Positions 1 to 62,906 of a stretch of DNA of 64,000 nt are shown here, one piece after another. Both the position numbers and the translations under genes were made by a program. Each line of letters opens with the position of its first letter. Within the stretch, counting starts at the first letter, position 1. The notes under the pieces were generated by a model that was given only the letters and a program-made list of their open reading frames with translations, was not told the origin of the DNA and ran no database searches. The DNA is from Thraustochytrium sp. TN22 (taxonomy: Eukaryota > Sar > Bigyra > Thraustochytrida > Thraustochytriidae). The stretch is taken from assembly GCA_013306675.1 (NCBI GenBank), contig JABLUY010000075.1, forward strand, positions 62,001 to 126,000. Direction: 5' to 3'.

Positions 1-18
1 TAGGGCGATGGGATTGGG
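1..18. repeat. 18-bp PiggyBac-type terminal sequence, inverted
   Basis: These bases are the reverse complement of the outermost 18 bases of the element end seen intact at 57795. They abut ATAT and then the body of copy 1, which lacks its own first 41 bases. The window therefore seems to open at the junction of another copy, or of an inverted terminal module, lying to the left. Confidence 0.7.
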
Positions 19-2314: not shown

Positions 2315-2467
2315 ATATTTTCCTTTTCATTGTAACCTCATTGTAACCTTTGTGAGATCTCACAAGTGGTGCTCTCGGTCTCTGAAAGCTGCCATGACTT
2401 GCGGCATTTTCAAAAATGCCAGCTCGGCCTTGAGTGATGGTGCAGATCAACATCGTCGGGAGGCACC

Positions 2468-14022: not shown

Positions 14023-14475
14023 CCAAGTTGGCTGGCCAGCGCTCGCCCCACGCCACGCCAAAGCGCGGCGCAGCGATTGTTGTCTGCGTGTGCCGCAGCT
14101 TGCGACGGCGGTTGGCCCAGCCACGAGCCCAGCGAGTCTTGTATAGCTGGCTCGGTCTTCAACGCGCAACACTCATCCGTTGAGGGTGGTGCATCGCTCA
14201 ACCGAAAAGTCGGCCACAGTCGAGCGCATAGAAACGGCACATACAATCCGTCAGTGTGAGGGGCCACAGTACGCCAAACGCCACACGCAGAAGGATGGCA
14301 AAACTCCCACATCTCAGAAGTAAATCAAAACGTCCGCATCAGTGCGAGTGCTTCCAAAAGCACCCCCTCCTAGCGCCGCCCCGCCGCCGCCGCCCTATCC
14401 ATACGTCCCTCGGGTACGCAGTAGTTATAAGCAGGCTCGCGTTCATCCTTTAGTCCTTTTTCCTTTTTCCTCCTT

Positions 14476-42038: not shown

Positions 42039-44438
42039 ATGATGTCGTCGGCGTCGGCGTCGGCGAGGGCGCTGGCGGCCGGGTCGGACGCGGCGTACAT
42101 GCCGCTGTACTTTATGTTCGTGGCGCTGCTGGCCGGCGCGGCGTCGCGCAGGCTGCAGCAGCGTGTGGCGCCGTGGTTCCCGTACCAGGCGATCATGTTC
42201 CTGGAGGGCGCTTTGCTGGGCGTGGCGCACGAGGCGACAGCGGGCGGCCTGGGCGACGTGAGCGTGTCGATTGAGTCGTGGGCGAGCATCGACCCGGCGC
42301 TGCTGACGGCGGTCTTCTTGCCGAGTCTCATCTTCGCGGACGCGATGCGCGTCAACATGCACGAGTTCCAGACGGTGGCGTTTTGGCCGTCCATGCTGCT
42401 GGCCATGCCAGGCGTGATGATTTCGGGCGCCATCATGGCCGTGGTGGCCAAGTACATGCTCGGGTACACATGGGACTGGACGGCGTGTCTTTTGTTCGGC
42501 ACGGTGCTGGGCGCCACGGACCCGGTGAGCATCGCGGCGCTGCTGGAGGGCTCGGGCGCGCCTGCGCGCCTGAAGCTGCTCATGAGCTCGGAGAGCCACC
42601 TGGCGGACCTGACGGTGCTGGTGCTCTTCCAATTTTTTCTGGAGCTGGCCACCACAGAGGCGGACCACCTGCTGGAGCCGGCGGCCGCGGTCACCTTCTT
42701 GCTGCGGCTCATGCTGGTGGCGCCGCTCGTGGGCCTGCTCTTTGGGCTCGGCGGCTACTACTTTATCAAGTACAGCGCGATCCATGACGTGATGGCGCAG
42801 ATCGCTGTGACCGTGGTGACGGCGTACCTTTCGTTCCTGGTGTCGGAGCACAACTGCGGCAGCAACGGCATCATCGCCAGCGTGGTTGCGGCCTGGGTGT
42901 TTGCCAAGTATGCCTGGCCCAAGTTCGCGCGGCGCGAGACCATGGAGAACGTGTGGGCGGCCATCGAGTACTTCGGCAACACGCTCATCTTTATGCTGGC
43001 GGGCCTGATCCTGGCCGGCTCGGTGTGGCGCACGTCCGCCGCGGCCGAGCTGGGCGGCCGCGACGTGCTCAACGTGGTGGTCGCGTGGGGCCTGCTGTAC
43101 GTGAGCCGTTTTGGCATCGTGAGCGTGTCCTTCCCGCTGCTGCGCTGCGCGGCGCGGGGCAAGCTGACCTGGCCTGAGGCCATCGCCTCGGTGGCGGGCG
43201 GCGTGCGCGGCGCCGTCACGGTGACGCTGGCCATTGTGGTGCTCAACTCCGCCGAGGCCGGCGACGAGGCGCAGGCCGAGGTGGCCTCGCACTTTGGGGA
43301 GGACCACGAGAAGGCGCTGGCCAAGTTCTTCTTTCTGGTCGGCTCCGTCGTGCTGCTGAGCGCCACGGTGAATGCCATGTCCTTTGAGGTCGTGCTGGGC
43401 TGGCTCGGGCTCACGGCCAGCTCCGCCTCGCAGCAGACGCTGCACGCCTTCGTGAACCAGCGCGCGCGCAAGCGCGCCCTGGCGCGCATCCACGCGCTGC
43501 GCGAGGACGAAGCCTTCCGCGCTGTCGGCACGGCCGACCTGGCGCGCTTGCTGGAGGGCACGCGGCTGGGCGAAGGCCTCGACCTCAAGGGCAGCCGCGG
43601 CGACGAGACGCCGCAGCCGGCCGAGGTCGACCCGGACGCCGTGGTCGAGGCCTCCTGCGACCCGCGCCTGATCGAGAGCGTGCGTCTGCTGTTTTTGTCC
43701 ACCGTGCGCGCGCACTACTGGGAGCAGATCCGCACCGCTAAGCTGCCGCGCCGCAGCAACGCGGCGCTCTACCTGCTCGAGTCAATCGACAAGGCCGGCG
43801 ACGTGGTGTCCGCCCGCCTCGACGACCTCACACCGCTGCACATCCAGGACCGTCTCAAGCACGCCACCTTGTCGGAGCGCGCGCTTGACTGTGTCAGCTA
43901 CCTCGTGCCGGAGTCCACCAACACCAACGTCTACGCGCAGGGCCGCCTCGGCGACGCACGCCGCGCCGAGGCCGTCACGCTCGCCTCCTGTTTCATTGAT
44001 GCCCACCTGCACGCCGAGGCCATGGTCGCCGAGTACGTGGGCTCCCACCAGAGCTCTGCCGCCGCCATGGACACGCCGGAGGCGGCCTTCGTCGTTGGCG
44101 AGTCACGCCGTTTGCGCGCCCGGGCCGAGGCCATGCTTGTCGAGGCTCGCCTCGCGGACGCCCGTGTCCTGCAGCACGTCCACGCCGCCCAGGTCGTCCG
44201 TGCGGTCCTCGAGGACCAGCGCCACTACCTGGAGGACCTCGCGCGCCAGGGCATTGTCGATGCGCATTTCCTCGAGGCCCAGCTCGCCAACATTCACCGC
44301 GACCGCATCGCGGTCCACCGGCGCCAGCGCGACACCTTTCGCCGCCTTGCGGCCGACCGTGCTGCCAGCCACCCTTCGCGCAACTCCCGCGTGCGCCGCC
44401 CCAACTATTCCGACGTCTCCGTTGTAGCCTTGGCCTGA
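42039..44438 (+). CDS. CPA1-type Na+/H+ exchanger 1 (SOS1-like)
   Basis: 799 aa from the Met pair at 42039. About 12 membrane helices fill residues 20-480. A cytosolic tail of about 320 residues carries no cyclic-nucleotide-binding domain that I can see. Family landmarks are FLPSLIFADAMRV, GATDPV (TDP 160-162) and the arginine-bearing GGVRGAVTVTLAIVV. In the fifth-helix ion site, where electroneutral CPA1 exchangers read ESLLND, this protein reads ESHLAD (185-190): the Asp is kept and the Asn is Ala. It would exchange Na+ or K+ for H+ at the plasma or an organelle membrane. It is a tandem paralogue of the gene at 45798 and shares that substitution. Confidence 0.9.
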   Translation: MMSSASASARALAAGSDAAYMPLYFMFVALLAGAASRRLQQRVAPWFPYQAIMFLEGALLGVAHEATAGGLGDVSVSIESWASIDPALLTAVFLPSLIFADAMRVNMHEFQTVAFWPSMLLAMPGVMISGAIMAVVAKYMLGYTWDWTACLLFGTVLGATDPVSIAALLEGSGAPARLKLLMSSESHLADLTVLVLFQFFLELATTEADHLLEPAAAVTFLLRLMLVAPLVGLLFGLGGYYFIKYSAIHDVMAQIAVTVVTAYLSFLVSEHNCGSNGIIASVVAAWVFAKYAWPKFARRETMENVWAAIEYFGNTLIFMLAGLILAGSVWRTSAAAELGGRDVLNVVVAWGLLYVSRFGIVSVSFPLLRCAARGKLTWPEAIASVAGGVRGAVTVTLAIVVLNSAEAGDEAQAEVASHFGEDHEKALAKFFFLVGSVVLLSATVNAMSFEVVLGWLGLTASSASQQTLHAFVNQRARKRALARIHALREDEAFRAVGTADLARLLEGTRLGEGLDLKGSRGDETPQPAEVDPDAVVEASCDPRLIESVRLLFLSTVRAHYWEQIRTAKLPRRSNAALYLLESIDKAGDVVSARLDDLTPLHIQDRLKHATLSERALDCVSYLVPESTNTNVYAQGRLGDARRAEAVTLASCFIDAHLHAEAMVAEYVGSHQSSAAAMDTPEAAFVVGESRRLRARAEAMLVEARLADARVLQHVHAAQVVRAVLEDQRHYLEDLARQGIVDAHFLEAQLANIHRDRIAVHRRQRDTFRRLAADRAASHPSRNSRVRRPNYSDVSVVALA

Positions 44439-45797: not shown

Positions 45798-48188
45798 ATG
45801 GTGAGCGCGGAGGCGGCGGTGGCGGAGGTGGAGGCGGCGCGCCAGCTGGCCGGCAGCGATGCGGCGTACCTGCCGCTGTACTTTCTGTTCATCGGGCTGC
45901 TCATGGGCGCCATGACCATGTGGGCGCAGCTCAAGTGGGCGCCCGAGCTCCCCTACACGGGCGTCATGCTGGTGGAGGGCATCTGCATGGGCCTGCTGCA
46001 CGCCGGGACGGACCATGGCCTGGGCGAGCTGAGCGTGTCGATCGATTCGTGGGTCAACATCGACCCGTTCCTGCTCATGGCGGTCTTCCTGCCCAGCCTC
46101 ATCTTCGCGGATGCGATGCGCGTCAACACGCACCAGTTCGTGGCGGTGGCGCTCCGCCCGTCGATGCTGCTCGCCGTGCCCGGTGTCGTCATGTCCGGTG
46201 GGCTCATGGCTGTGCTGGCCTACTACTTTCTGGGCTACACGTGGGACTGGTACGTCTGTGTTCTCTTCGGCACCATTGTCAGCTCGACGGACCCGGTAAC
46301 CATCGTCGCGCTCCTGGAGAACGCCGGCGCGCCGGCACGCCTGACGCTGCTGCTCAGCTCCGAGAGCCACCTCGCCGACCTCACCGTGCTGTTCTTCTTC
46401 AAGTACTTTTTGGAGATTGTGACCAAGGGCGCCGACTATGTGCTGGAGCCGAGCAAATCGCTGGCTTTCTTCGCGCGGCTGTGGCTCATCGCGCCCATTG
46501 TTGGTCTCGTCTTTGGCGTCGTCGGCTACTACATCATCAAGCAGACCGTCTCGCCCACGCGTGGCAGCGACGTCATGGCGCAGATCACCATCACGATCGT
46601 CACGGCCTATCTCTCCTTCCTCGTGTCGGAGCACAATTTCGGCAGCAATGGCATCATCGCCAGTGTCGTATCCGCCTGGATTTTCGCCGCCTATGCCTGG
46701 CCCAAGTTTGCCGAGCGTGACACGATGGAGAACGTCTGGGCCGCAATCGAGTATGTGGGCAACACGCTCATCTTCTTGCTTGCGGGCCTCATCCTCGGCG
46801 GCCAGGTCTACACCACAGCCCACACAACCATCGACGAACGCGACGCCGGCAATGTCATCATTATGTGGATTGCCCTCTACTTCACGCGCGCGTGCGTGGT
46901 CTTCATGATGTACCCCTTGCTCCACAGGTTGTCAGGCGAGAACTACACTTGGCAGGAAGCCATCGCAACGGTCGCGGGTGGCGTGCGCGGCGCTGTCACC
47001 GTCACGCTGGCCATCGTCGTGCTCAACTACGCCGAAAACGCTACTTACATGGAGGAGCTCAAGACGCACTTCGGCGAGGAATACGAGAAGGAGATCTCCA
47101 AGTTCTTCTTCCTGATCGGTTTCATGGTGCTGCTGACTGTCACCGTCAACCAGGCCATCTTCCCCTTAGTTCTACGCCGACTCGAACTCACCAAGAGCTC
47201 TAAGACGGAGGAGAAGCTTCAAGAGTTCGTGTCCAATCGGCTTGGGCGAAATGCCGAAGAACTCAGGAAGAAGATGGCCGAGGACGTCTCCCTCAAGGAC
47301 GTGGACGAAGGCCAAATCAAGGATTTGATCAACTCAATCGAATTCATTCCCGCACCGGGGCCCGAAGCCGAACGCACCGAGGAGGAGGAGAAGGCCAGGC
47401 AGAAAAAACTCAGCGAGCGTCCGGACGAGAAGACCTTGAGGAGCGTGCGCGAGATGTTCCTCAACGCCGTGCGCGCCAATTACTGGGACCAGATCAATAG
47501 CGGCCTTCTTCCCAAGCAGAGCGATGCTGCCGTCATTCTGCTCAACTCGGTCGAACTTGCCGGCGACTACGCCGGCCTTAGGCTGGATGATCTCACCCCG
47601 CTGAACCTCGAGTCGCGTCTCATCACGAAGAAGACCCGCCTCGAACGTCTTCTCGATCTCGTCGACGATTGCCTACCGGAGTGCGTCACGGTCGACAACT
47701 ACCTGCAGACTCGCATCATCTACGCGCGGCGCGAGCAGGGTGTCTACATCGCGACTTGCTTCCTGCAGGCGCACGAGAGCGCAGAAACAAAGATCGCCAC
47801 CTACGTTGGCGAGGACGAAACCATCGACACCCCGGAGGAGCTTAAGGTTATCAATGAGTCCGAGGCGCTGAGGGAGAAGGTCAAGGCGCTGCTCGATCAG
47901 GCCATAGATATGGACCCTGAGGTGGTGAAGCAAGTCAAAACCATCAAGGTTGCGAACGCCATCATCGAACACGAGCGCCAGGAGATCGAGCGTCTTCTGG
48001 ACGAGGGCATCATCGACGCCAAGTTCTTCGAGGATCAGATGGAACGTATCCGCAACGACCAGAAGGGGCTCTATGCCTTCAGTTTGCAGCACCGCCACAA
48101 GCTCGCTCAAGAGGCCGCGGGATCCGCGCGCCACGTCGCTCATGTCGACGACTCCTTTGACCAGTCCAGCAGCAGCTCCCCCGCCTAA
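45798..48188 (+). CDS. CPA1-type Na+/H+ exchanger 2 (SOS1-like)
   Basis: 796 aa. The layout is as for its neighbour: membrane region about 25-470, then a helical cytosolic tail (for example VRANYWDQINSGLLPKQSD and IATCFLQAHESAETKIATY) of the kind found in SOS1-like exchangers. SSTDPV (TDP 164-166) and GGVRGAVTVTLAIVV are present. The ion-site motif is ESHLAD (189-194) instead of ESLLND. The membrane halves of the two paralogues are close while the tails have diverged, so the duplication is not recent. The last residues are Ser-rich. Codon use in the tail is less GC-biased than in the first exchanger. Confidence 0.9.
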   Translation: MVSAEAAVAEVEAARQLAGSDAAYLPLYFLFIGLLMGAMTMWAQLKWAPELPYTGVMLVEGICMGLLHAGTDHGLGELSVSIDSWVNIDPFLLMAVFLPSLIFADAMRVNTHQFVAVALRPSMLLAVPGVVMSGGLMAVLAYYFLGYTWDWYVCVLFGTIVSSTDPVTIVALLENAGAPARLTLLLSSESHLADLTVLFFFKYFLEIVTKGADYVLEPSKSLAFFARLWLIAPIVGLVFGVVGYYIIKQTVSPTRGSDVMAQITITIVTAYLSFLVSEHNFGSNGIIASVVSAWIFAAYAWPKFAERDTMENVWAAIEYVGNTLIFLLAGLILGGQVYTTAHTTIDERDAGNVIIMWIALYFTRACVVFMMYPLLHRLSGENYTWQEAIATVAGGVRGAVTVTLAIVVLNYAENATYMEELKTHFGEEYEKEISKFFFLIGFMVLLTVTVNQAIFPLVLRRLELTKSSKTEEKLQEFVSNRLGRNAEELRKKMAEDVSLKDVDEGQIKDLINSIEFIPAPGPEAERTEEEEKARQKKLSERPDEKTLRSVREMFLNAVRANYWDQINSGLLPKQSDAAVILLNSVELAGDYAGLRLDDLTPLNLESRLITKKTRLERLLDLVDDCLPECVTVDNYLQTRIIYARREQGVYIATCFLQAHESAETKIATYVGEDETIDTPEELKVINESEALREKVKALLDQAIDMDPEVVKQVKTIKVANAIIEHERQEIERLLDEGIIDAKFFEDQMERIRNDQKGLYAFSLQHRHKLAQEAAGSARHVAHVDDSFDQSSSSSPA

Positions 48189-48394: not shown

Positions 48395-49951
48395 ATGAGC
48401 GCGTACGAAGCGCTGCGCGATGCAGCGGAGGCGCGCGAGGCGGAGCGCGCGGAGCTGCTGGCCCAGGAGGAGGGCGCGCTGCCGCTGCTGGAGCGAGCGG
48501 CCACGCCGGCCGAGTCGGGGCAGCAGCGGCAGCAGGTGCAGCAGCAGGTGCTGCTGGGGCAAGGGCCAGCGGCGCAGCTGCCGACCGGCCCTGCGTACGC
48601 GCGGGACCTGGCCTTTTGGCGCGGCGTGGCTGTCTGCGTGGCCATTGGCGCCACCATGGGTGCCCTCGCGTTTCTGTACCTGGAGGCCATCGAGCGGGCG
48701 CAGAGCGCCCTTTTTGGCGACGGGATTGTGCGCCCGCGCCTCGAGGACGCCGCCGAGGCGCGCATCGGCCACGGCAAGTGGGCCTGGATTGGCGTCTGTG
48801 CCGCGGGAGGCCTCGTGGTGGGCCTCCTAAAGCTGGCTGTCGGCTTTCCAGCCACCGTGGAGGGCTTCTTTGCCGAGGTCAAGGCGCAGCACGTGGATCC
48901 GGTCACAGCGCCAAAGGTCGTGCTGGTTTCGCTTGCCTCGCTCTGTGCCGGCGTATCGCTCGGGCCCGAGGCCGCCATGGGCTCGCTCGGTGGCGGCCTG
49001 GCGCAGGCCTGGTCAGACTTGTACGGCCTCACCGAGGAGGACACGCAGCGCAACGTCGTCAACGCCATGGCCGGCGCGATGGGCGGCCTCTTTCCGAGTC
49101 CCATCATCTCCGTCACCACCATGACAGAGATCGGCCGCGTCGAAACCATGCACAGCAACTACATGCGCACCGTTGTCATGCTCACCTTCGCGTCCTCCTC
49201 CGCTTTTGCGGTCTTCTTCGCGCTCAAGGGCGACTCCTATCTGCCACTCAACCCGCTCGCGCTCTCCTACAGCTTCCGCTCCGGCGATCAGATCAAGGGT
49301 GGTATCATCGGCGTGCTGGCCGGTCTTATTGGCTTCGCACACATTGTTCTGGCCGGCCTCTGCGAGCGGCTCTTCACGGGGCTTCGCGCACGGGTCATGC
49401 CGGACAGCCCGCGCCTTGCCACCGTCGTGCTGCCCACCCTGGGCGGCGCGCTCCTAGGCCTCATTCTCGTCGCTGCGCCGCTCTGCGTTGGTAGTGGCAG
49501 TACCCAGACGGCCGGCATTTTGGTGCTCGCCGTCGCGCGCCGCATCGACGCCTCCACCCTCTTCGTGTCCGCGTTCCTCAAGTCGCTCGCCTTCGCCATT
49601 AGCCGCGCCGCCGGATTTGTCGGCGGGGCGATCTTCCCCATGATCTTCATCGGCTCCGCCACTGGCCTTGCCTTCGCGCGCGCCGTCGATGACCATGAGG
49701 TGCTCCCGCTCCTGCTCTCGGACGCCTGCTTCATGGCCGCCGTGCCGGCCGCCATCGCCCCCATGCCGGTCTCCTTTCTTCTCATGATCGCCTTCTCCTT
49801 CAACCTCGGCCCTTCCCAGGCCACGCCCATCTTCTTCGCCTGCATCGTCGCGCACCTCACCACGTGCGGCTTTGGCCTTGTGCTTAGCCTCCTCGACCTT
49901 CTTCAGCGTCGCAATGCCCGAGCTGCCACCGCTGCGGACCAGCACTCCTAA
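48395..49951 (+). CDS. ClC-family chloride channel/transporter, free-standing
   Basis: 518 aa. A 65-residue Glu/Gln-rich cytosolic N-terminus precedes about ten membrane helices starting at GPAYARDLAFW. Filter-region motifs are GVSLGPEAAMG (in place of the canonical GKEGP) and GGAIFPMIFIG (the GxFxP site). The GSGIP motif of classical ClCs is not evident. There are no C-terminal CBS domains, unlike most eukaryotic ClCs, so it resembles the shorter bacterial-type branch. It would move Cl- or another anion, by channel or proton exchange. It is closely related to the C-terminal half of the next gene. The ATG at 48395 is preceded by AACAACC, a favourable context. Confidence 0.9.
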   Translation: MSAYEALRDAAEAREAERAELLAQEEGALPLLERAATPAESGQQRQQVQQQVLLGQGPAAQLPTGPAYARDLAFWRGVAVCVAIGATMGALAFLYLEAIERAQSALFGDGIVRPRLEDAAEARIGHGKWAWIGVCAAGGLVVGLLKLAVGFPATVEGFFAEVKAQHVDPVTAPKVVLVSLASLCAGVSLGPEAAMGSLGGGLAQAWSDLYGLTEEDTQRNVVNAMAGAMGGLFPSPIISVTTMTEIGRVETMHSNYMRTVVMLTFASSSAFAVFFALKGDSYLPLNPLALSYSFRSGDQIKGGIIGVLAGLIGFAHIVLAGLCERLFTGLRARVMPDSPRLATVVLPTLGGALLGLILVAAPLCVGSGSTQTAGILVLAVARRIDASTLFVSAFLKSLAFAISRAAGFVGGAIFPMIFIGSATGLAFARAVDDHEVLPLLLSDACFMAAVPAAIAPMPVSFLLMIAFSFNLGPSQATPIFFACIVAHLTTCGFGLVLSLLDLLQRRNARAATAADQHS

Positions 49952-50711: not shown

Positions 50712-53513
50712 ATGGCGCCCGCGAACTCCGGCGAGGGGGCGGAGGAGGACGGCGCGCGCGCGCAGCAGACGCAGGAGGAGGCGCAGGAGGAGACGCAGCA
50801 GGAGATGCGCCAGGAGGCGCAGCAGCAGGCGCAGCAAGAGCCGCAGCCGCAGCCGCAGACACAGCCGCAGACACAGCAACTGCAGCCGCAGGCGGAGCAG
50901 GTGGAGCACGTGCGGTCCGTGCAGGCGGTGCCGAGCCTGGCGGCAGCCGTGCGCGCGCTGCTGGAGAATGCACTGGACGCAGGCGCGACGCACGTCGAGG
51001 TGGTACTCGTGCAACAGGGTTTCGAGGAGCTGGCCGTCTCGGACAATGGCGCCGGCGTGCCGCGGGCGAAACTGCCGACGCTGATGCGCAGGCATTGGAC
51101 GCAAAAGACGCTGGGAGCGCGAACCTTTGGCTTCCGCGGCGAGGCGCTCGCCTCGCTCTGCGACCTGTGCGCTGAGGGCTCCGTGCAGGTGTGCACACGC
51201 TCGCGACTGGACGCCGGTGGCGTGCGCGCCACCTTCGCGCGCGACGGCGCGCTCACGGGGGAGGCGCCCTTCGCGAGCGACCCGGGCACGCGCGTCGTTG
51301 TGCGCGACCTCTTCGCGGCGCTGCCTTGGCGCCGCGACGAGCTCGAGCGCACCATCGAGGCGCAGTACGAGCGCACGCTCGAGCTGCTCCAAGCGTACGC
51401 GCTCGCCACGCGCGGCGTCACACTATCTTGCGCGGACGACACGGCCGTCGTGTTGCAGGCGCCAGGCGCCGCCACCAAGGAGGCCAAGCTCGCCGCGCTC
51501 TTCGGCGCGGACATGCTCAAGGGCTTGGCGCACGTCGACATGCGGTTTGGGCGGCCGGCGGCCGTCGTCGCCGACGACGGCGCCTCGATCCGCCTCGAGG
51601 GCTTCGTCGGGCTGGCGCCCGCCGCCGGTGCGCGCCGCCGCCCGCCGCACTTTTGGGCCGTCAACAGCCGCCCGGTCACCTTTCCCGCCGGCTCGCACGC
51701 GCTGCACCAGGCGCTCAACGACCTGCGGCCCCCGGCGGCCGGCGCCGAGCTCGCCGTTTTCCTGAACTGGGTCATGCCCATGGACGCCTACAGCGTCGTT
51801 GAGACGCCCGAGGCGCGCCACGTGTACTTTGCCGGCGAGAAGGCGCTGCTCTCGCAGCTTCGGGCGCGCTTCGCGCACCTGTGGCACGCGCACCGCGCCA
51901 CGGCGGCCGTGGCGGCCGCCGCAGCGGCCACGGCCGCCCGCCGCCAGAGCGCCGACGCCGATGACGACGCCTCCGAAGATGACCGCCGAATCGCCGTGGG
52001 TTCCGGCAGCGAAGTGGAGATGGCCGCCATTGGCAAGGGCGCCGGCGGCTCCACCGCCTTCCCGCCCGCCGAGGAGAGCGGCGGCCGCGAGGGCGAGCGT
52101 CTGGGCCGCCTGGTGTCCGCCCGCGTCGGCATCGACGGCGAGTCCGAGCCCGAGCCCCCGGTGCCCGGCCCGGCTTATGCCACCGAGCTCTCCTTCTGGA
52201 CTTACATCCTCACCTCCGTCGTCGTGGGCGGCCTCATGGGTCTCGTCGCTTACGGCTACCTGGAGGCCATCGAGGAGACGCAATCGGCCATCTTCGGGGA
52301 CGGAGTCGTGAACCCGCATGTCGTCGAGGCAGAGCTCATCGAGCTGGGCCGCGGCGAGTGGACCTGGGTCGCCGTCCTGGCCGGCACGGGCGTCGTCGTG
52401 GGCCTGGCCAAGGTAGCGCTGCGCTTCCCGCTCGGCCCGCTCGAGGGATTTTTCGCGGAGGTGCGCGCGCAGCACGTCGATGCGGTGCTCGCGCCCAAGG
52501 TGGTCCTGGTCTCCCTGCTCTCGCTCTGCGGCGGCGTTTCGCTCGGCCCCGAGGCCGCCATGTGCTCGCTCGGCGGCGGCCTGGGCCAGGCCTGGTCCAC
52601 GTTCCGCGGTCTTCCGCACGAGGAGACACAGCAGAACGTCATCAACGGCATGGCCGGCGCCATTGGTGGCCTCTTCCCCAGCCCCATCGTCGCGGTCACC
52701 ACGCTGACTGAGATCGGCCGCCCGGACACCATGCACCACAGCTACATGCGCGCTGTCGTCATGCTCACCTTCGCGTCCTCCTCCTCCTTTGCTGTGTACT
52801 TTGCGCTCAAGCAGGACACCTACCTGCCACTGAACCCGCTCGCGCTATCCTACGCCTTTCGGTCTGGCGACCAGCTCAAGGGCGCTGCGCTCGGCGTCGC
52901 CGCCGGTCTCGTTGGTCTCGCGCACGTGGTCATCAGCGGTCTTTGCAAGAGCCTCTTCTCTGACCTCCTCGCCGGCCGCCTGCTGCGCGCCTTTCCCAGG
53001 TTCGCTTTGGCCTCCCTCCCCGTGCTGGGCGGCGCCCTGGTTGGCTGTCTCGTGGTGGCCGCGCCCCTCTGCATCGGCAGCGGCAGCACGCAGACTGGTG
53101 GCATCATCAAGCTCGCCGCGGCGCGCGCCGTATCCCCGACCACGCTGGTGGCCTCGGCGGCGCTCAAGTCCCTGGCCTTTGGGCTCAGTCAGGCCACTGG
53201 CTTCATCGGCGGCGCCATCTTCCCCATGATTTTTGTGGGCTGCGCCGTGGGGTCCGCGCTCGCGCTCGCCATCGACGATCACGACATGCTCCCGTTCGTG
53301 CTCTCCGTTACCTGCTTCACCGCCGCCGTCCCGGCCGCCGTAGCGCCCATGCCGGTCTCCCTCATGCTCACCATCGCCTTCTCCTTTAACCTCGGCCCGT
53401 CGCAAGCCACGCCCATCTTCTTCGCCTGCGTCATGGCGCATCTGACTGTCTGCGGCCTTGGCATCCTCTTGCGCATCGTCAATCTCAACACCAGCAACCA
53501 TTATCCACAGTAA
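50712..53513 (+). CDS. MutL (PMS-like) N-terminal half fused to a complete ClC anion transporter
   Basis: One open frame of 933 aa. Residues 15-62 are Gln/Glu-rich. Residues about 67-400 are a MutL GHKL ATPase and transducer: LLENALDAGA (84-93), VSDNGAGV (109-116), GFRGEAL (140-146) and FLNWVMPMDAYS. Two catalytic residues of MutL proteins are altered. The general-base Glu of the motif ELVEN is Ala82, and the transducer Lys of TPDKRE is Ala368; the neighbouring PMS gene has E112 and K488 there. ATP could perhaps bind but is unlikely to be hydrolysed. An Ala-rich, acidic linker leads at about 486 (GPAYATELSFW) into a full ClC with GVSLGPEAAM and GGAIFPMIFVG, closely matching the gene at 48395. 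There is no MutL C-terminal domain. The ATG at 50712 is chosen as the first that precedes recognisable protein. Whether a single polypeptide is made is not shown by sequence alone. Confidence 0.85.
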   Translation: MAPANSGEGAEEDGARAQQTQEEAQEETQQEMRQEAQQQAQQEPQPQPQTQPQTQQLQPQAEQVEHVRSVQAVPSLAAAVRALLENALDAGATHVEVVLVQQGFEELAVSDNGAGVPRAKLPTLMRRHWTQKTLGARTFGFRGEALASLCDLCAEGSVQVCTRSRLDAGGVRATFARDGALTGEAPFASDPGTRVVVRDLFAALPWRRDELERTIEAQYERTLELLQAYALATRGVTLSCADDTAVVLQAPGAATKEAKLAALFGADMLKGLAHVDMRFGRPAAVVADDGASIRLEGFVGLAPAAGARRRPPHFWAVNSRPVTFPAGSHALHQALNDLRPPAAGAELAVFLNWVMPMDAYSVVETPEARHVYFAGEKALLSQLRARFAHLWHAHRATAAVAAAAAATAARRQSADADDDASEDDRRIAVGSGSEVEMAAIGKGAGGSTAFPPAEESGGREGERLGRLVSARVGIDGESEPEPPVPGPAYATELSFWTYILTSVVVGGLMGLVAYGYLEAIEETQSAIFGDGVVNPHVVEAELIELGRGEWTWVAVLAGTGVVVGLAKVALRFPLGPLEGFFAEVRAQHVDAVLAPKVVLVSLLSLCGGVSLGPEAAMCSLGGGLGQAWSTFRGLPHEETQQNVINGMAGAIGGLFPSPIVAVTTLTEIGRPDTMHHSYMRAVVMLTFASSSSFAVYFALKQDTYLPLNPLALSYAFRSGDQLKGAALGVAAGLVGLAHVVISGLCKSLFSDLLAGRLLRAFPRFALASLPVLGGALVGCLVVAAPLCIGSGSTQTGGIIKLAAARAVSPTTLVASAALKSLAFGLSQATGFIGGAIFPMIFVGCAVGSALALAIDDHDMLPFVLSVTCFTAAVPAAVAPMPVSLMLTIAFSFNLGPSQATPIFFACVMAHLTVCGLGILLRIVNLNTSNHYPQ

Positions 53514-54704
53514 TATCGACATTTTCAGGATTCTACGGCTTTGGCCGACCTTCCGCCGTCCTTGGGCCATCTTTGGGCCCATCTTTGGACCTTGGGAGCT
53601 GCCTGCTGCACGAATTTACTGTCCTCTTGGGTTGCGCCGTGGCGGCTATGACGATGGTACACAGCATCATGACGCCCATCAAGTGAAGGCAACGAGGTGT
53701 GTCGCGATCACAGCAACGGGGACGCCGCCATCGGTCTCGGTCGGCGTCTCGGTGCCGGCGTCGACCTCAGCGGCGATCGTGACGGACGCCTCGGCTGTCT
53801 CCCTCCGCCCGCACAGCCTCGAGCGACTCGGCTCAACGTCCATCGGCGTGGAGCGCGTGGTCGGGAGCTCAATGTCCAGGTTAGAGTCGTGCCGGTGGAG
53901 CTGGAGATGAGCCTTCCCTTTGGTGCGAGGCTGATCTGCGCAAGGGCTTCATTATGCGCATTGGCTTCATTATGCGCATTGGCTTCACTGGTTTGGTGGC
54001 CGTGGGTTGTCGCGTGTGTTGGTGCGCGTTGCGACCCATTAAAACGGCCGGCAATCGTTGTCGGACTCTGCGTGGGTGGCCGAATGGGCCGAAGGATTAG
54101 CGCGCGCGTTGCACATCTCGCGCTACTGATCATCCCGCTGAAGGTGCGCGACATCGTGCCATACTCACATGTAAGCGCGACCGAGACCTTGGCCCAAGCC
54201 TCGGCGCGGCTCGGCAACCGCACAACTTCCTTACGGTTGTTGCTGAAGGGTGCTCGCTCTCTGTGCTTCGCCGATCTCGGCCATGTCTTTTTTACGAGCT
54301 CGCTCCACCTTGGCCTTGAACACCGCACAAGGTTCACAGCACGCCTTACTTCGCGCTACCACCATCGAAGAAGGCCCGCCGGCAGACGTGAGGTGGGACT
54401 CCTCGCCTTTTGATCAAGTTGAGGACAAGGTCTTCTCGTCTTCGCTGTCCTGTCGTGTGGAACAGGTGGTTCTTGTTCTGCGCGCTGCTGCCTGCTCCCC
54501 CAAAATCAAAACCCGCGCCGCCGTCGCGTTGAAGCGGCGCGCGGGCGGCGTGCGGCACGAAGCAAGGCGAACGCAGTTCTAGCTAGCTCGCTAGCCAGCT
54601 AGAGAGTCGCCGCTCGCTCGCTTGCGAGTTTGCGGCGACGGCTCGCGGCGGAGGCGCCGCGCCACGCCATCCCATCCGCCCGCGCCATCCCTCCTGCTCT
54701 CGCC
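53514..54704. other. Intergenic, 1.19 kb
   Basis: This lies between the fusion gene and the PMS-type gene. An approximately 18-bp unit (TTCATTATGCGCATTGGC) is repeated almost three times at about 53947-53992. Frames of 200-240 codons exist on both strands but show no domain or coding bias, so I call no gene. Confidence 0.6.
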
Positions 54705-57146
54705 ATGGCGTCACCGGCCGCCGACGGAGCCGCTGCGGCAACGGGAAGCGCGGCGGTGGGCGCGGCCAGCCACGAGGACGCCGCCGCGCCCGTCCCCTCG
54801 CCCGCGCGCGGCGCCCAGGGCGCGAGAGAGCGCGACGGAACGCCTAACCACCGCGACCTGGGCTCGGACAAGGGCGCCAAGAAGGGGGACAAGGACGAGA
54901 TCGAGGATGACGAGGTGGACGAGGACGCGGAGGTGGACACGAGCCGCGGGCCGCGCGAGATCGGGTCGCTGGACGCCTCGGTGGTCCGGCGCATGTGCTC
55001 CGGCCAGGTGGTGACGAGCCTGTCGACGGCGGTCAAGGAGCTCGTGGAGAACGCGCTGGACGCGGGCGCGACGCGCGTGGAGGTGACGCTGTGGAAGCAG
55101 GGCCTGGAGAAGTTCTCGGTCTCGGACAACGGCTCGGGAGTGGCGCGCGAAAACCTGGACAAGATGATGCAAAAGCACTGGACATCCAAGATCGCCTCCT
55201 TCGAGGACGTGGCGGGCGTGCAGTCCTTCGGATTCCGCGGCGAGGCTCTCTCGTCGCTCTGCGACCTGTGCCCAGAGGGCGGCGTGGAGGTCTTTACGCG
55301 AACCGAGGATGACATCGCCGGCACCAAGGCCACCTTCACGCGCGCCGGCACGGTGCTCGAGCAGACCCCGCAGCAGCGCACGGTCGGCACGCAGGTCTCG
55401 GTCTCGGAGCTCTTCAGCACGCTGCCTGTGCGCCGACGCGAGTTCCAGCGCACCATCAAGACGCAGTTCTCGCGCATGCTGCTCCTCATGCAGGCCTACG
55501 CCATCATCAGCTGCGGCGTGCGCATCTCGTGCGTGCACCAGACGTCCGGCTCGAGCAAGAAGGTCATGCTGCAGACCTCGGGCGCCAAGACCATGAAGGC
55601 CAACATCATGTCGCTCTTCGGAGTCGGCCTCGCCAACAGCCTCGAGCCCATCGATATGGCCTTCCAGACCGAAGCCGCGCTGCGCACCGCGGCCGGCAAG
55701 CAGCCGCGCGGCAAGAAGCTGCCGGTCCAGAGCAGCGGCGCGAAGAACAGCAAGAGCAAACCCAACAACAAGAAAAAGCCCTTTCTTGCCGGCTTTGCGC
55801 TCGGCGACGGCGGCGATGGCGACGGCGACGCGGACGCTACCGGCGCCAATGACGAAGACGACGAAGACGACGACAACGACGATGCTGGCGACGATGCGGA
55901 TGGCGGGAGCACTCGAGGCGGCGACGACCTAGGGCCCGCGTGCAAGCTTACGCTTGAGGGCTTCGTGTCTAAGGTCGGCGGCGGCATTGGCATGGGCAGC
56001 AGCGACCGCCAATTCTGGTTCGTCAATGGCCGTCCAGTCGACTTCCCCAAGGGCTCCCGCGTCATTAACGCCGTCTATCGCCAGCACGAGATGAAGCACA
56101 AGCCGGCGCTCTTTCTGAATTGGATCGTCCCGCCCGGCGCCTACGACATCAACGTCACGCCCGACAAGCGCGAGGTCTTCTTGGTCGGCGAGGACGTCCT
56201 GGTCGCGCAGCTCAAGAACCACTTCGAGGAGCTTTGGAAGCGCGACGCCAACGTGCTGCCCCAGTCTCACACGATGACCAAGCTCTGGACCAAACAGGCC
56301 GGCGCTGACGGCGACGACGACGATGGCGACCGCGACGACGGTACCCGCGACAAGAGCAGCGCTGTGGCGAGGACAACCGACGATGACAAGGCAGAGGCGA
56401 GGACTGCCAACGACGACGCTGCAACGTCCGCCGAAAAGGACGTCGACGACGAGGAGGGCGCCGCTCTTGACGACGGGGATGACAGAGAAACCGACAAGGA
56501 AGCCTCAAGAAGAGGCGACAACAACAGCAGCAGCAGCAACAACAACAACAACAACGACGACGAGGACGAGGACAGTGATAGCGAGATGCGGGAGAGAGGA
56601 AGCGATGCCGGGGCAGAGGCTGCCAAGTCCGCTGCTGCTGCCGCTGCTGCTTCGGCTGAAAAGGGCACGGCTAGGAACGCTGATGCGGGGTCCGTGGGGT
56701 CCTCCGCGCCGGACTCCGCGTCACTTGGACCAAACAGCCTCCTCTCGCAAGGCGGGCGCCGCAGCGAGTCATCCGGATTCGCGAGCATGCTTTCGCTTAG
56801 CGACGACAGTGCATCGCAGCATCAGGCTACGCGCGCCCCAAAGCCGCCCGCTGCCTCGACGAGCCTGAGCCAATTAGACCGTGAGCTCTTCGGCGGGGAC
56901 GAGGACGCCTCCCAGGCGCCCCAGGCCCGCACCGTGCAGGACCGCCTGCTCGCCATGGACGGCCAGAGCTACGCGGATGACGACGAAGTGGACATTGCCA
57001 AGGCTCGCGCGGAGTTGGATGCCTTGGCCAAACGGAAGAGTGTCGACGCCGATAAGCGCGGCAGGAGCGAGGAGGGCGGTAACTACAACGACGACGACGA
57101 CGACGATGGAGACGACGAAGAAGAAGAAGCAGAAGAAGACCAAGGC

Positions 57147-57182
<36 letters not shown>

Positions 57183-57779
57183 GGCGGGGGCCCTCAGCGC
57201 GCGCGCGCCTCAAAGCGAGCGTGCCCAGACGAGGCTGCTTCCCCGAAGCGGGCGCGGGATCAGTCAATGGCGTCCTCGCCCAAGCGCGCCAGGAACTCGC
57301 CCAAGAAGGCCGCATCGTCGCCCCTGCGCGTGGACCGGTCCATGCCGCCGCCCAAGGCGCGCCCGAGCAAGCGCGTGGCCGCACCGGCGGCAGACGCCAA
57401 CGTGTTCGACCTGTCCGTGGAGGAGGAGGAGGAGGAGCAGGGGAAGGGAGAGAGCGAGCATGAGACCCCAGCCGCCGTGCCGTCGCGCAACCTCAAGCGC
57501 GTCCGCACTGACTACGTCGCCATGCGCATGGAGCCTGTGTCGGCCATGGCGGCCGCCCTAAAGGACGAGGCCAAGCGCCGGCCATTTCTGCAGGCAACCG
57601 CCGGCGCCGATGCGAAGGCGCTCCGAGAAAATGCGGCCAGCGAGAGCGGCGGCAGTGATGGCGGCGGGCACCACGTTCCCAACGTGAACGCAGAGGACGG
57701 CGGCGCGGGCTCCGCAGCGGCGCCCTCAGTGGGTGCAAGCAAGAGTTATCCCAATCCCATCGCCCTAGACGGAGTTTAA
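54705..57779 (+). CDS. PMS-type MutL mismatch-repair protein, C-terminal domain lost
   Basis: 1024 aa as it stands, from the ATG at 54705. The GHKL ATPase is intact: KELVENALDAGA (E112, N116), VSDNGSGV and GFRGEALSSLCDLC. The PMS2-like RTIKTQFSRMLLLMQAYAII follows, then a transducer with DINVTPDKREV (K488). An acidic, Ser/Asn/Gln-rich linker of about 450 residues then runs to the end. The MutL C-terminal dimerisation/endonuclease domain, which should follow, is missing. From base 57750 the reading frame runs into the terminal repeat of the PiggyBac-type element, which supplies the last 10 codons (PNPIALDGV after a shared Tyr boundary) and the stop. PMS proteins pair with MLH1 in nuclear mismatch repair; without the C-terminal domain, pairing is not expected. 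Read as a truncated gene. Confidence 0.85.
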
Positions 57780-57839
57780 TCAGGATAGCCATATCCCAAT
57801 CCCATCGCCCTAGACGGAGTTTAATCAGGATAGCCATAT
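57750..57839. repeat. 45-bp transposon terminal module, two tandem copies
   Basis: Bases 57750-57794 and 57795-57839 are identical 45-mers beginning CCCAATCCCATCGCCC and ending GGATAGCCATAT. Each is the 41-bp outer end of the element plus ATAT. The first copy follows TTAT in the PMS coding sequence. The second is continuous with copy 2 of the element. Confidence 0.95.
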
Positions 57840-60131
57840 TATCCCTAGTAAATCGGCTCTCCTGCTTGCGCTCGACTGACCTGTTGCTATCATGATTCTA
57901 ATCATTTTTGGAACTTTCAACTACTGGGTTTGTATGGAAGCGTAAAGTGTTGGTCACTTCCGACTGGCCTGTGCGGATGCTGAGGCCAACTTGGGCTGCA
58001 TCAAGGGCACGATGGACTCGTGCTGAGGCTGCTGCGAGAGGATCTTGAACTATGGCTTGATGGGGTGTCGGTGTAGCTGGCTTGGGCTACGTGGTCGTTC
58101 CTGCTCTGCGCTGTAGGGGTACCGGACGAGGCACTGGCGCTGCTCGAATCGACATGATCGAGGCAAATGGGCGAAGGTGTTCCGTTGACGTTTGTCTTGC
58201 GCTTCTTGAAGCCTTCGTGAGGCTCGACGCGCACGCGCGTGTGCCACTTGGAAAAGCAGGTTGTGCGTTCATTCTTTCTCATGAACACGTGCAGAGGCAC
58301 ACCGCAGATGGTGCAACGACGGTGCGTTTGCTTGCCGCAGATGACGCAGAGCCGCTTGGCGGGAATCCTCTTGTTGTTGGCGTTGAAGGATGCCTTTCCC
58401 GCTGCCTCTGAGTCATGTTGCAGTGCGGCATCGAGGCGGATGTCGCGGGCTTGGCCGTGGTTGAAGAACTTCTGCAACTCGGGGGTTCGCTTGCGCTTAC
58501 CGGCGGTCACGAGGTCCCTCGCCGCTTCCCTGGTGAGCCCAGTGGGCTTGGGCATGCTTGGCTGCATGTTGAACTCCACCTGCGCCGTATCGAGCTGCCT
58601 GCTCCTGTAGACGTGACGGACCATGTCGACAGTGAGGCGGAACGAGACAGTGCTGAGCGCTTCAGAGCGGTTCACCTTGTCGCGGAGGGCCTTTAGCCCG
58701 TCGCTGTCTTCGAGGTTGCTCTTCCTCGCAGCCTGTAAGTAGCGGTAGACCACGATGGCGTTGACAACGAGCTGCTTGTACGTGCGCAACGCGATGTTCT
58801 GGTCGCAGCTCAGATTCATGCACTGCGTGTTGGTGATCTGCTCCACGTACTGTGTGCTTCCGTCGACGCCGCCCTTTGCGACGTTGTATAGCTCCTGCGG
58901 TAAGCACTTGATGACATGCACGGGCCGCATGGGCCCCTTCAGAGCGACAAGCTTGCGCATGGCGCGCCACAGCCGGAAGTGCGAGCTCAGCACCGCCCCC
59001 TCCTCCTCGCCGAAGATGGCAGGTGGCTTGGGCGGCGCACCCGCTGTCGATGCTCTGGTGCGCCCATGTCGTGAGCTTGTCCGCCCACGGTTTCAGAGCG
59101 CGCTCCATGGCGAGCCGGGCGTCCGGAGGCACTTCAACGAGGCAGGCGTACAAACACGAACTCGTGCTGGCAGCAACGTAGAGCACGTGATCGATTTGGA
59201 GGACCACAGCTTGGTGCAAGACTTGCGCGCGGTGCTCGGCAGGTATGGCCTTCCACCAAGTCTCGTCCCCCACGTGTTCATCTGGGTGCTCACGATACGT
59301 GCGTCTACCGCGCCTCCAGGCGCGACGCGCGTCTTGATCTCGACGCTGCATAGTACTGACGATGCGTCGCACTCCGCGCCTGGAAGCCGGACGCGAGCGA
59401 CTCCATCCGGCGAGACTGCGAGCCCCGGAACGGTCTTGTGCTGAATGAGGCCGACCTCGAACATGCACTCGCACCACGCGTCGGTTCGTCGACCAACGCA
59501 AGTATGTCTTCGAAGTCTTGCTGCGCAGCGGCCTCAGCACGAGCATCCTCGTCGCCAAGCTCCTCTCCTTCTTCGTCTTCGTCCCCTGTGTCCCGCTTGT
59601 CCAGGGGCACGAACTCGCTGTCGCTGTCGCTGTCGCTGTCGTCCTCCACGCGGTGGTTAGGCCTCGCCGATGCCATGATGTCGCAGTGCGGGCCCGACTC
59701 CACGTCCAAGCGCTGCGGCAGGGGCGTGCGAGCTGAGAGCAGGCACAAGGCACCCGCCAGGGCCGCCTGCAGCCGCGCGCCGCAGCGCCTGCGGCTCCAG
59801 CGCGCTCCGCGACGAAGTCGCGCGCGAGCTCCCCCCAAAGCCGCTCTGGGCGAACTGCCGAGCTCATCTCATCCTAACCACCACGCCTTCGGCCAAAATG
59901 AATAGGGGGCAGGAGCCTTGGGTCGCTTCGAGTGGGCCTCTTCAAGCTCGGCCCCATCGCTGCGTTTTTGATCGAATGCGGAACTAACTTCGCCAGACTC
60001 TAGGCCACTTTTTTGGAGCAAATCGGGAGTAAAGTACCCTCTTAATACGCTTTAGTGCCCCCTGTGCCGGGCGTCACCGAGGGACCCCCGCGTGGTAGGC
60101 GGATACGAGTAAGCATAGAGGTGTGATTGGG
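57795..60131 (-). mobile_element. PiggyBac-type DNA transposon, copy 2 (complete ends)
   Basis: 2337 bp from CCCAATCCCATC to CACACC-type sequence ending GATTGGG. The ends share an inverted CCCAATC(A/C)CA start, and CCC at the tip is typical of PiggyBac elements. ATAT flanks both sides (57791-57794, 60132-60135), although the left ATAT also belongs to the 45-bp tandem module. The canonical TTAA target is not present. The coding strand is minus. It appears identical to copy 3 throughout and differs from copy 1 at four positions that I can find. Confidence 0.9.
58001..59676 (-). pseudogene. Broken PiggyBac C-terminal / YqaJ-like nuclease gene, copy 2
   Basis: This has the same layout and the same frame changes as the gene described in copy 3: acidic N-terminus, PD-(D/E)XK region, then GGVD and a Cys-rich end. 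The only coding differences from copy 1 that I see are a few substitutions in and next to the nuclease region. Confidence 0.7.
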
Positions 60132-60440
60132 ATATGGTGAACTAGTGGATTGCTGAAACAAGACTCCAACTTCCGAAGGTCTGTGTCTGTGGCGAGCGCC
60201 GTGCTTGTCGAGTTGCGCTACGAGTTTGGCGCCAGAACTTTCGGAGCACCTGAAGTGACTCGTGACGAGCTTCATGAGCGTCGCTAACCTACCACCGCAC
60301 CGGCGGCATCCAACCGCGGTCGGTCCAATTCAAGTTTTTATGCAACGTCATTCACCAGCAACTCCTAGCAAGGCCTATGTGATTACTAGGCCACGGACAG
60401 CTCCGGCATTTCGGTTCATTTTATCGGTGGTCCGTAATAA
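60132..60440. other. 309-bp spacer between the inverted PiggyBac copies
   Basis: This unique sequence is less GC-rich than the flanks, starts ATATGG and ends TAATAA against the two element tips. I find no gene, no homology to the PMS gene's missing 3' end and no other copy in the window. Confidence 0.7.
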
Positions 60441-62777
60441 CCCAATCACACCTCTATGCTTACTCGTATCCGCCTACCACGCGGGGGTCCCTCGGTGACG
60501 CCCGGCACAGGGGGCACTAAAGCGTATTAAGAGGGTACTTTACTCCCGATTTGCTCCAAAAAAGTGGCCTAGAGTCTGGCGAAGTTAGTTCCGCATTCGA
60601 TCAAAAACGCAGCGATGGGGCCGAGCTTGAAGAGGCCCACTCGAAGCGACCCAAGGCTCCTGCCCCCTATTCATTTTGGCCGAAGGCGTGGTGGTTAGGA
60701 TGAGATGAGCTCGGCAGTTCGCCCAGAGCGGCTTTGGGGGGAGCTCGCGCGCGACTTCGTCGCGGAGCGCGCTGGAGCCGCAGGCGCTGCGGCGCGCGGC
60801 TGCAGGCGGCCCTGGCGGGTGCCTTGTGCCTGCTCTCAGCTCGCACGCCCCTGCCGCAGCGCTTGGACGTGGAGTCGGGCCCGCACTGCGACATCATGGC
60901 ATCGGCGAGGCCTAACCACCGCGTGGAGGACGACAGCGACAGCGACAGCGACAGCGAGTTCGTGCCCCTGGACAAGCGGGACACAGGGGACGAAGACGAA
61001 GAAGGAGAGGAGCTTGGCGACGAGGATGCTCGTGCTGAGGCCGCTGCGCAGCAAGACTTCGAAGACATACTTGCGTTGGTCGACGAACCGACGCGTGGTG
61101 CGAGTGCATGTTCGAGGTCGGCCTCATTCAGCACAAGACCGTTCCGGGGCTCGCAGTCTCGCCGGATGGAGTCGCTCGCGTCCGGCTTCCAGGCGCGGAG
61201 TGCGACGCATCGTCAGTACTATGCAGCGTCGAGATCAAGACGCGCGTCGCGCCTGGAGGCGCGGTAGACGCACGTATCGTGAGCACCCAGATGAACACGT
61301 GGGGGACGAGACTTGGTGGAAGGCCATACCTGCCGAGCACCGCGCGCAAGTCTTGCACCAAGCTGTGGTCCTCCAAATCGATCACGTGCTCTACGTTGCT
61401 GCCAGCACGAGTTCGTGTTTGTACGCCTGCCTCGTTGAAGTGCCTCCGGACGCCCGGCTCGCCATGGAGCGCGCTCTGAAACCGTGGGCGGACAAGCTCA
61501 CGACATGGGCGCACCAGAGCATCGACAGCGGGTGCGCCGCCCAAGCCACCTGCCATCTTCGGCGAGGAGGAGGGGGCGGTGCTGAGCTCGCACTTCCGGC
61601 TGTGGCGCGCCATGCGCAAGCTTGTCGCTCTGAAGGGGCCCATGCGGCCCGTGCATGTCATCAAGTGCTTACCGCAGGAGCTATACAACGTCGCAAAGGG
61701 CGGCGTCGACGGAAGCACACAGTACGTGGAGCAGATCACCAACACGCAGTGCATGAATCTGAGCTGCGACCAGAACATCGCGTTGCGCACGTACAAGCAG
61801 CTCGTTGTCAACGCCATCGTGGTCTACCGCTACTTACAGGCTGCGAGGAAGAGCAACCTCGAAGACAGCGACGGGCTAAAGGCCCTCCGCGACAAGGTGA
61901 ACCGCTCTGAAGCGCTCAGCACTGTCTCGTTCCGCCTCACTGTCGACATGGTCCGTCACGTCTACAGGAGCAGGCAGCTCGATACGGCGCAGGTGGAGTT
62001 CAACATGCAGCCAAGCATGCCCAAGCCCACTGGGCTCACCAGGGAAGCGGCGAGGGACCTCGTGACCGCCGGTAAGCGCAAGCGAACCCCCGAGTTGCAG
62101 AAGTTCTTCAACCACGGCCAAGCCCGCGACATCCGCCTCGATGCCGCACTGCAACATGACTCAGAGGCAGCGGGAAAGGCATCCTTCAACGCCAACAACA
62201 AGAGGATTCCCGCCAAGCGGCTCTGCGTCATCTGCGGCAAGCAAACGCACCGTCGTTGCACCATCTGCGGTGTGCCTCTGCACGTGTTCATGAGAAAGAA
62301 TGAACGCACAACCTGCTTTTCCAAGTGGCACACGCGCGTGCGCGTCGAGCCTCACGAAGGCTTCAAGAAGCGCAAGACAAACGTCAACGGAACACCTTCG
62401 CCCATTTGCCTCGATCATGTCGATTCGAGCAGCGCCAGTGCCTCGTCCGGTACCCCTACAGCGCAGAGCAGGAACGACCACGTAGCCCAAGCCAGCTACA
62501 CCGACACCCCATCAAGCCATAGTTCAAGATCCTCTCGCAGCAGCCTCAGCACGAGTCCATCGTGCCCTTGATGCAGCCCAAGTTGGCCTCAGCATCCGCA
62601 CAGGCCAGTCGGAAGTGACCAACACTTTACGCTTCCATACAAACCCAGTAGTTGAAAGTTCCAAAAATGATTAGAATCATGATAGCAACAGGTCAGTCGA
62701 GCGCAAGCAGGAGAGCCGATTTACTAGGGATAATATGGCTATCCTGATTAAACTCCGTCTAGGGCGATGGGATTGGG
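60441..62777 (+). mobile_element. PiggyBac-type DNA transposon, copy 3 (complete ends, inverted)
   Basis: This is the exact-looking reverse complement of copy 2. It starts CCCAATCACACC and ends GATTGGG. The flanks do not match each other (TAATAA on the left, CTATTA on the right), so no clean target duplication brackets this copy. Its right flank (CTAT) also does not match the left flank of the pair as a whole (TTAT). That is more consistent with rearrangement than with a single simple insertion. Confidence 0.9.
60896..62571 (+). pseudogene. Broken PiggyBac C-terminal / YqaJ-like nuclease gene, copy 3
   Basis: The likely start is the ATG at 60896, with an acidic lead (VEDDSDSDSDSEF) typical of PiggyBac N-termini. 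By about 61090 the signal moves to another frame: DAWCECMFEVGLIQHK, then SPDG (D codon at 61165) and VEIKT (E at 61231, K at 61237). These are the catalytic pattern of YqaJ/lambda-exonuclease-type nucleases. From about 61250 it moves again (HRAQVLHQAVVLQIDHVLYV, the usual downstream helix and strand). From about 61530 it returns to the second frame: PVHVIKCLPQELYNVAKGGVD (D at 61708), LVVNAIVVYRYL, and a C-terminal CVICGK...CTICG...CFSKWHT. That last part matches the PiggyBac C-terminal region. The preceding DDE catalytic part is absent. Three frame changes are needed, so no intact product is expected. Introns are possible but I see no good splice sites. Confidence 0.7.
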
Positions 62778-62906
62778 CTATTAGAGCGTTCGCCAGTCTT
62801 ACGGCGGACAGCCTGGTAGGCAGGCTAGGCCTAGCTGTCGTCGTCGTAGCGTAGCTGATGATCCAAACCCCCCTTGCCGGCGGCGGCGGCAGCCCCGCCG
62901 GGCTCA
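62778..62906. other. 129-bp gap between transposon and ankyrin gene
   Basis: Host sequence with no sign of the PMS C-terminal domain. It must contain whatever remains of the ankyrin gene's promoter and leader. Confidence 0.6.

Follow-up and report, generated by a model that had tools for sequence, protein, structure and literature searches.

A reading frame joining a MutL-like domain to a ClC-family protein in Thraustochytrium sp. TN22, and its probable origin by tandem duplication

In ClC proteins the N-terminus is cytosolic, and AtCLCa, a ClC that bears CBS domains, is said to respond to adenine nucleotides. Transporter-histidine-kinase fusions such as CbrA carry a GHKL-fold ATP-binding domain and a transporter-like membrane domain on one chain; they are bacterial, and their GHKL domain is a C-terminally placed kinase with phosphotransfer and not a MutL. 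PMC7271328 describes adenine-nucleotide regulation of mammalian ClC exchangers through C-terminal CBS domains. According to PMC7730388, binding of ATP makes the N-terminal domains of MutL proteins close and dimerise, and hydrolysis promotes their separation; the E29A form of MutL is described there as held constitutively in the ATP-bound closed state with its domains dimerised. Here we report an open reading frame (ORF) of Thraustochytrium sp. TN22 in which a MutL-like N-terminal domain (MutL1) is joined in frame to a ClC-family protein (ClC2). It lies on contig JABLUY010000075.1 (assembly GCA_013306675.1) within a stretch of 64,000 nucleotides (contig positions 62,001 to 126,000, forward strand; hereafter the window), the numbering of which is used throughout. 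Both halves are members of known families, and the combination appears to be new: we know of no MutL-ClC architecture, and a full-text literature search gave no such fusion among the matches listed. We consider it moderately probable that this is a chimeric gene, born by tandem duplication, that encodes a MutL pseudo-ATPase-ClC protein.

Two protein families in one reading frame

The fusion ORF, MutL1:ClC2, comprises 933 codons and runs on the + strand from an ATG at 50712 to 53513, with a codon signal that starts at about this ATG. Its translation opens with a Gln-rich low-complexity tail (residues 1-63; 50712..50900, +) and continues into MutL1, a PMS2-like MutL N-terminal domain made up of the GHKL and transducer regions (residues 64-392; 50901..51887, +). 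There follow a junction linker that is Ala-rich and then acidic (residues 393-436; 51888..52019, +), a segment from Met437 that is probably a remnant of the native ClC2 N-terminus and possibly contains an internal start (52020..52166, +), and the transmembrane part of ClC2 (residues 486-933; 52167..53513, +). The frame is open over this whole length, with no stop between the halves, as the sequence-only reading, an earlier note on this DNA, had stated. Its description of a single 933-codon frame in which a MutL N-terminal domain is linked with a complete ClC was borne out by the Pfam and PMS2 matches and by the identity with ClC1 given below. That reading was right in its main lines; it had missed the flanking genes ClC1 and MutL2, the loss of the catalytic Glu and the possible start at ATG 52020.

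Two Pfam models of the GHKL ATPase score above their cut-offs on MutL1 (HATPase_c_3 with 30.8 bits, cut-off 25; HATPase_c with 30.7 bits, cut-off 26.4), the GHKL models being placed at residues 76-149 and 76-171 of the fusion. The match to the DNA_mis_repair transducer model (residues 288-386) falls under its cut-off, with 21.4 bits against 26. Among solved structures PMS2 is the top match, with an expectation value (E) of 2.8e-32 over residues 50-385. On TIGR00585, the MutL equivalog model with a cut-off of 180 bits, MutL1 fails with 172.6 bits, and the three other MutLs of this genome pass: MutL2 (264.5), an MLH1 on contig C1 (399.6) and a protein on contig C343 that we infer to be MLH3-like (211.3). 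No Pfam match to MutL_C, the C-terminal domain of MutL, was found in the fusion.

The Voltage_CLC model matches ClC2 with 89.3 bits (cut-off 24.8) over residues 589-912, covering positions 35-344 of the 346 in the profile, and hydropathy shows several hydrophobic segments. From residue 486 of the fusion onwards, ClC2 shares 66% identity over 432 aligned positions with ClC1, the paralogue encoded directly upstream (48395..49951, +; from Pfam and alignment). By its domain ClC2 is a member of the ClC family, the ClC part spanning residues 486-917, and transport is predicted for it. Judged from the nonsynonymous (dN 0.26) and synonymous (dS 0.87) divergence between ClC2 and ClC1, with a dN/dS of 0.30, ClC2 is constrained. 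The top-scoring NCBIfam ClC model for ClC2 is PRK03655, 'ion channel protein', presumably YfeO of E. coli, with 47.6 bits against a cut-off of 312; a literature search for YfeO with CLC and chloride gave no match. In a weak profile match to the bacterial ClC 1kpl (E 0.00095), the Glu of the ClC2 motif GPEAA is aligned with the Glu of the GREGP gating motif, and the second Glu of the 1kpl motif EEMR is aligned with an Ile of ClC2. In ClC proteins these two positions are those of the gating Glu and the internal proton Glu.

Eukaryotic ClCs usually carry a C-terminal CBS pair. A CBS domain was matched by Pfam in a ClC on contig C400, with no such match in the fusion, in ClC1 or in a ClC on contig C220. 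The fusion is like the ClC-family transporters in its Voltage_CLC score, its hydrophobic segments and the weak alignment of GPE with the GRE of 1kpl, and unlike them in its N-terminal MutL-like domain and the lack of a CBS match. Scans for relatives of the ClC half gave seven pattern matches on viral contigs and 25 on prokaryotic genome contigs, none of them confirmed, and no match on plasmids at E 1e-5. Such scans reach fairly close relatives only, and we therefore make no statement that bacterial ClCs are unrelated.

The openness of the frame is weak evidence by itself. The fusion frame is free of stops upstream as far as 50385, the opposite strand over the same DNA also holds open frames of 466 and 438 amino acids, and open 41-codon windows are frequent in three intergenic stretches (477/966, 285/637 and 883/1236). 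The case for the fusion is therefore carried by the homologies and by the codon signal. The codon model, for which nine ORFs from this genome served as training set, compared all six frames in 41-codon windows that overlap. From 50637 onward the fusion frame ranks first in every one of 44 windows, and it does so in none of the four earlier windows, so that the ATG at 50712 suits as the start. From this ATG the coding signal is continuous, in frame, across the junction. The score of the fusion frame falls to -0.07 in parts of ClC2, and the 41 interdomain codons (51897-52019) score 0.20 against a best-of-six maximum of 0.19 in 61 intergenic control windows, a narrow margin. The earlier claim that no splice pair is visible holds for the GT[AG]AG donor, which is absent from the + strand in 50712-53513; other donors, and the genome's own donor consensus, were not looked at. 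As no stop separates MutL1 from ClC2, translation of MutL1 would yield the fusion, and all turns on whether such translation takes place.

Residues lost and kept in the MutL-like domain

The residues of MutL1 were compared with those of the best 80 of 576 confirmed prokaryotic MutL loci and of the three other MutLs of this genome. The prokaryotic set was retrieved with two motif patterns, and conservation of the motif I and III columns is thus somewhat inflated; the pattern permitted Ala at the position of the catalytic Glu, so that the Glu found there in 80 of 80 sequences was not forced. This motif I Glu, which is present in all three paralogues as well, is replaced by Ala in MutL1 (A82). 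The sequence-only reading had seen all three GHKL motifs, and motif I proves not to be intact. The Lys of the transducer Lys loop is also an Ala in MutL1 (A368); the prokaryotic MutLs have Lys here in 79 of 80 cases, with one gap, and the three paralogues have Lys, Lys and Arg. Two further residues found in all 80 prokaryotic sequences are changed, the Gly of the N-arm (V70 in MutL1) and the Ser of the lid (Q131), and the lid is six residues shorter than that of MutL2. We take the A82 site to be E29 of E. coli MutL, and the A368 site to be K307, its ATP-sensing Lys. In MutL proteins the dimer is built through the N-arm, the lid and the Lys loop.

Retained in MutL1 are N86, D89, D111, G113, G115, T130, K132, the GFRGEA motif, G192-T193, P205, R207, N318 and R320. 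When the 45 columns with at least 95% conservation in the prokaryotic set are considered, MutL1 keeps 29, MutL2 38, MLH1 43 and the MLH3-like protein 30. Nine of the 38 columns kept in MutL2 are lost from MutL1, and all nine lie in the N-arm, catalytic, lid and Lys-loop elements; 26 of the 29 that it retains lie outside these elements (Fisher p 1.3e-6, the grouping being post hoc). Such a distribution of losses does not fit undirected decay, at any rate over a large part of the history of MutL1. MutL1 resembles the N-terminal domain of PMS2/PMS1 (the MutL-alpha subunit) in the order of GHKL and transducer, in its top match and in its pocket residues. It differs in the absence of the catalytic Glu, the Lys-loop Lys and MutL_C, in its short lid and degenerate N-arm, and in having a membrane protein as its partner.

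The MLH3-like protein (L018, contig C343) is itself without several deeply conserved MutL residues, including those at the positions equivalent to 81 (Lys to Glu) and 85 (Glu to Ala) of the fusion.

Origin of the fusion and its possible role

The gene order is ClC1 - MutL1:ClC2 - MutL2, with all three genes on the + strand. MutL2, a PMS2-like paralogue of MutL1 (Pfam, alignment and residues), lies directly downstream of the fusion (54603..57779, +, with its likely ATG at 54705). Its identity with MutL1 is 48% across 233 aligned positions and 38% across 103, and it retains both the catalytic Glu and the Lys of the Lys loop. In a 28-row tree that includes 24 of the 80 prokaryotic MutLs, MutL1 and MutL2 are sisters with a support of 100/99. 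The presence of ClC1 and MutL2 on either side would explain the origin of the fusion, as this order fits a tandem duplication of a ClC-MutL pair followed by a deletion. We envisage that an ancestral pair of neighbours, a ClC and a PMS2-type MutL, was duplicated in tandem to give ClC1-MutL1-ClC2-MutL2, and that a deletion then joined MutL1, cut just past its transducer domain, in frame to the N-terminal tail of ClC2. The product would be one membrane protein, with a cytosolic MutL-like pseudo-ATPase at its N-terminus followed by a ClC transporter without CBS domains.

In such a protein MutL1 would most likely bind nucleotide without turnover, the residues for hydrolysis and switching having been lost and the pocket kept. 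It could act as a fixed or nucleotide-sensitive regulatory or scaffold domain (a sensor or a stabiliser) of a dimeric ClC, and not in mismatch repair. Because the N-arm, lid and Lys loop are degenerate too, a constitutive closed dimer of MutL1 is not assured. The sequence-only reading had suggested a cytosolic nucleotide-sensing role, which fits the kept pocket and the lost hydrolysis and switch residues; the sensing itself is presumed from these residues. Taken further, a GHKL pseudo-ATPase from mismatch repair would now be a nucleotide-responsive regulator that gates or stabilises transport through the ClC dimer by non-hydrolysing ATP binding, and so the N-terminal equivalent of the energy sensor that other ClCs have in their C-terminal CBS domains. 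This we put forward tentatively, and think it rather unlikely. With a cytosolic module that binds nucleotide, a dimeric ClC would be arranged in analogy to the CBS-bearing ClC-3/4/5 described in PMC7271328, although the module of the fusion is an unrelated GHKL domain, is N-terminal, and has putative binding and regulation.

A number of observations weigh against a duplication-born chimera that encodes such a protein. The tree is flagged for an odd letter make-up in MutL1 and MutL2, a long MutL1 branch and an unsettled bootstrap. DNA comparisons of the flanks and linker gave one result of four weakly above shuffles (39 against a maximum of 34) and three that were not, and with matches that are weak at best the unit of duplication is unconfirmed at the DNA level. 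Between MutL1 and MutL2 dN/dS is about 0.6 (0.46/0.76), which suggests relaxed constraint, and MutL1 is the more diverged of the two, both in branch length (2.08 against 1.41 in the 28-row tree) and in its score to the same PMS2 sequence (115 against 273 bits). Unique changes, polarised with MLH1 and the MLH3-like protein, number 48 in MutL1 and 40 in MutL2, a difference that is not significant. Neutral-decay simulations ended without any stop in 3 to 70 of 300 runs per setting (eight settings). The MLH3-like protein has lost 15 of the 45 conserved columns, nine of them in the same elements, against 16 in MutL1; such losses alone thus do not mark a dead domain. The changes in the N-arm, lid and Lys loop raise the possibility that MutL1 may neither dimerise with ATP nor bind it well, and the selection that kept its pocket may predate the fusion. 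In addition, eukaryotic ClCs are said to need two CBS domains for function in PMC5282741, the topic of which is a Dictyostelium ClC gene model; ClC2 is without them, and ClC1, ClC2 and the ClC on C220, none with a CBS match, would contradict that statement if they work.

Counting stop codons as proof of selection on MutL1 was tried and rejected, as neutral simulations at high GC content are often free of stops.

The main rival explanation envisages a relic or two separate products. Translation of ClC2 would start at Met437 (ATG 52020), and MutL1, a decaying remnant that belongs to the 5' untranslated region of ClC2 or is a pseudogene, would be open and in frame by chance. Similarity to other ClC N-termini extends back to about residue 452 of the fusion, with RLVSARV (residues 466-472) pairing with RLLSARV of the ClC on C220 and PAEESG (residues 452-457) with PAESG of ClC1, which places Met437 at or near the old ClC start, possibly still usable, and its start context (GAG ATG G) is a usable one. 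The region is GC-rich, with long frames open by chance, and short intergenic spacing occurs nearby, 206 bases separating an upstream exchanger ORF (end 48188) from ClC1 (start 48395); the loss of key catalytic residues and the relaxed dN/dS of MutL1 speak for this explanation too. Yet the codon signal stays in frame across both MutL1 and the linker, the MutL1 frame is intact across about 330 diverged codons, and the losses are non-random, all 26 conserved columns outside the switch elements (of the 38 kept in MutL2) having been retained. On this evidence we judge this explanation to be possible but somewhat unlikely.

It is very improbable that the fusion is an artefact produced by a false join of two loci at about 51890-52020. 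The join is known from one assembly of one genome, and suspicious assembly joins are seen where a dispersed repeat occurs, a copy of which lies on another contig beside a C-terminal domain of PMS2 type. When the window is compared with itself (matches of 150 bases or more, E up to 1e-8), however, the fusion matches its paralogues only, with no match over the junction; a paralogue of each half immediately adjoins the fusion in the right order and orientation, the frame is kept, and one full match to the fusion is found among the matches listed in the genome search. We give as little credence to a MutL1 that still performs MutL work, as an ATPase and MLH1 partner tethered to a membrane or to the nuclear envelope. 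It is still similar to PMS2 and has kept most residues of the GHKL motifs, but the catalytic Glu and the Lys are both Ala, the fusion has no MutL_C match, and the equivalog score falls short (172.6 against 180 bits).

If the joined protein of the tandem-duplication chimera is made, it would show the recruitment of a nuclear DNA-repair ATPase, its catalysis lost and its pocket kept, as the front domain of an ion transporter, and would offer a natural test of whether the GHKL fold can sense a ligand, without hydrolysis, on behalf of a membrane protein. The locus would be a single one with both parent genes still beside their chimera. If the joined protein is not made, the locus would still be a clear example of the birth of a chimeric gene through tandem duplication, and would caution against reading much into open frames where a genome is GC-rich.

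Repeats and other features of the window

The frame of MutL2 comes to an end at a copy of a dispersed repeat, about 2.35 kb long (57791..60135, +; from self-comparison and genome search). Further copies lie in the window at 60437-62781 (-) and 11-2318 (+), and the genome holds at least 56 long, nearly identical copies, some of them tandem or inverted. Three ORFs of the repeat gave no Pfam match, and it is probably a mobile element. The window self-comparison showed no repeat of any kind across the fusion junction. Elsewhere in the genome MutL_C is found twice among the matches listed, on contigs C62 and C343. The PMS2-type MutL_C ORF on C62 (L017 4482) lies directly behind a copy of the repeat, in matching orientation, and MutL2 is without such a domain. 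As MutL2 ends at the repeat and MutL_C follows it on C62, the repeat has split the gene or else contigs have been misjoined there. Less trust can be placed in the assembly at 57791, where a repeat copy adjoins MutL2, and at 2318, where one precedes a helicase ORF. This DEAD/Sec63 helicase ORF (2705-6139, +) lies about 390 bases past the repeat copy at 11-2318 and is perhaps also cut by it; its DEAD match starts at position 45 of the profile.

Just upstream of ClC1 lies a tandem pair of paralogous Na+/H+ exchanger ORFs on the + strand (41862-44438 and 45798-48188), which share 51% protein identity over 767 codons and 70.6% over 1308 aligned bases. On the - strand, an ORF of 1777 amino acids (8839-14172) carries an Ulp1-type protease domain near its C-terminal end.

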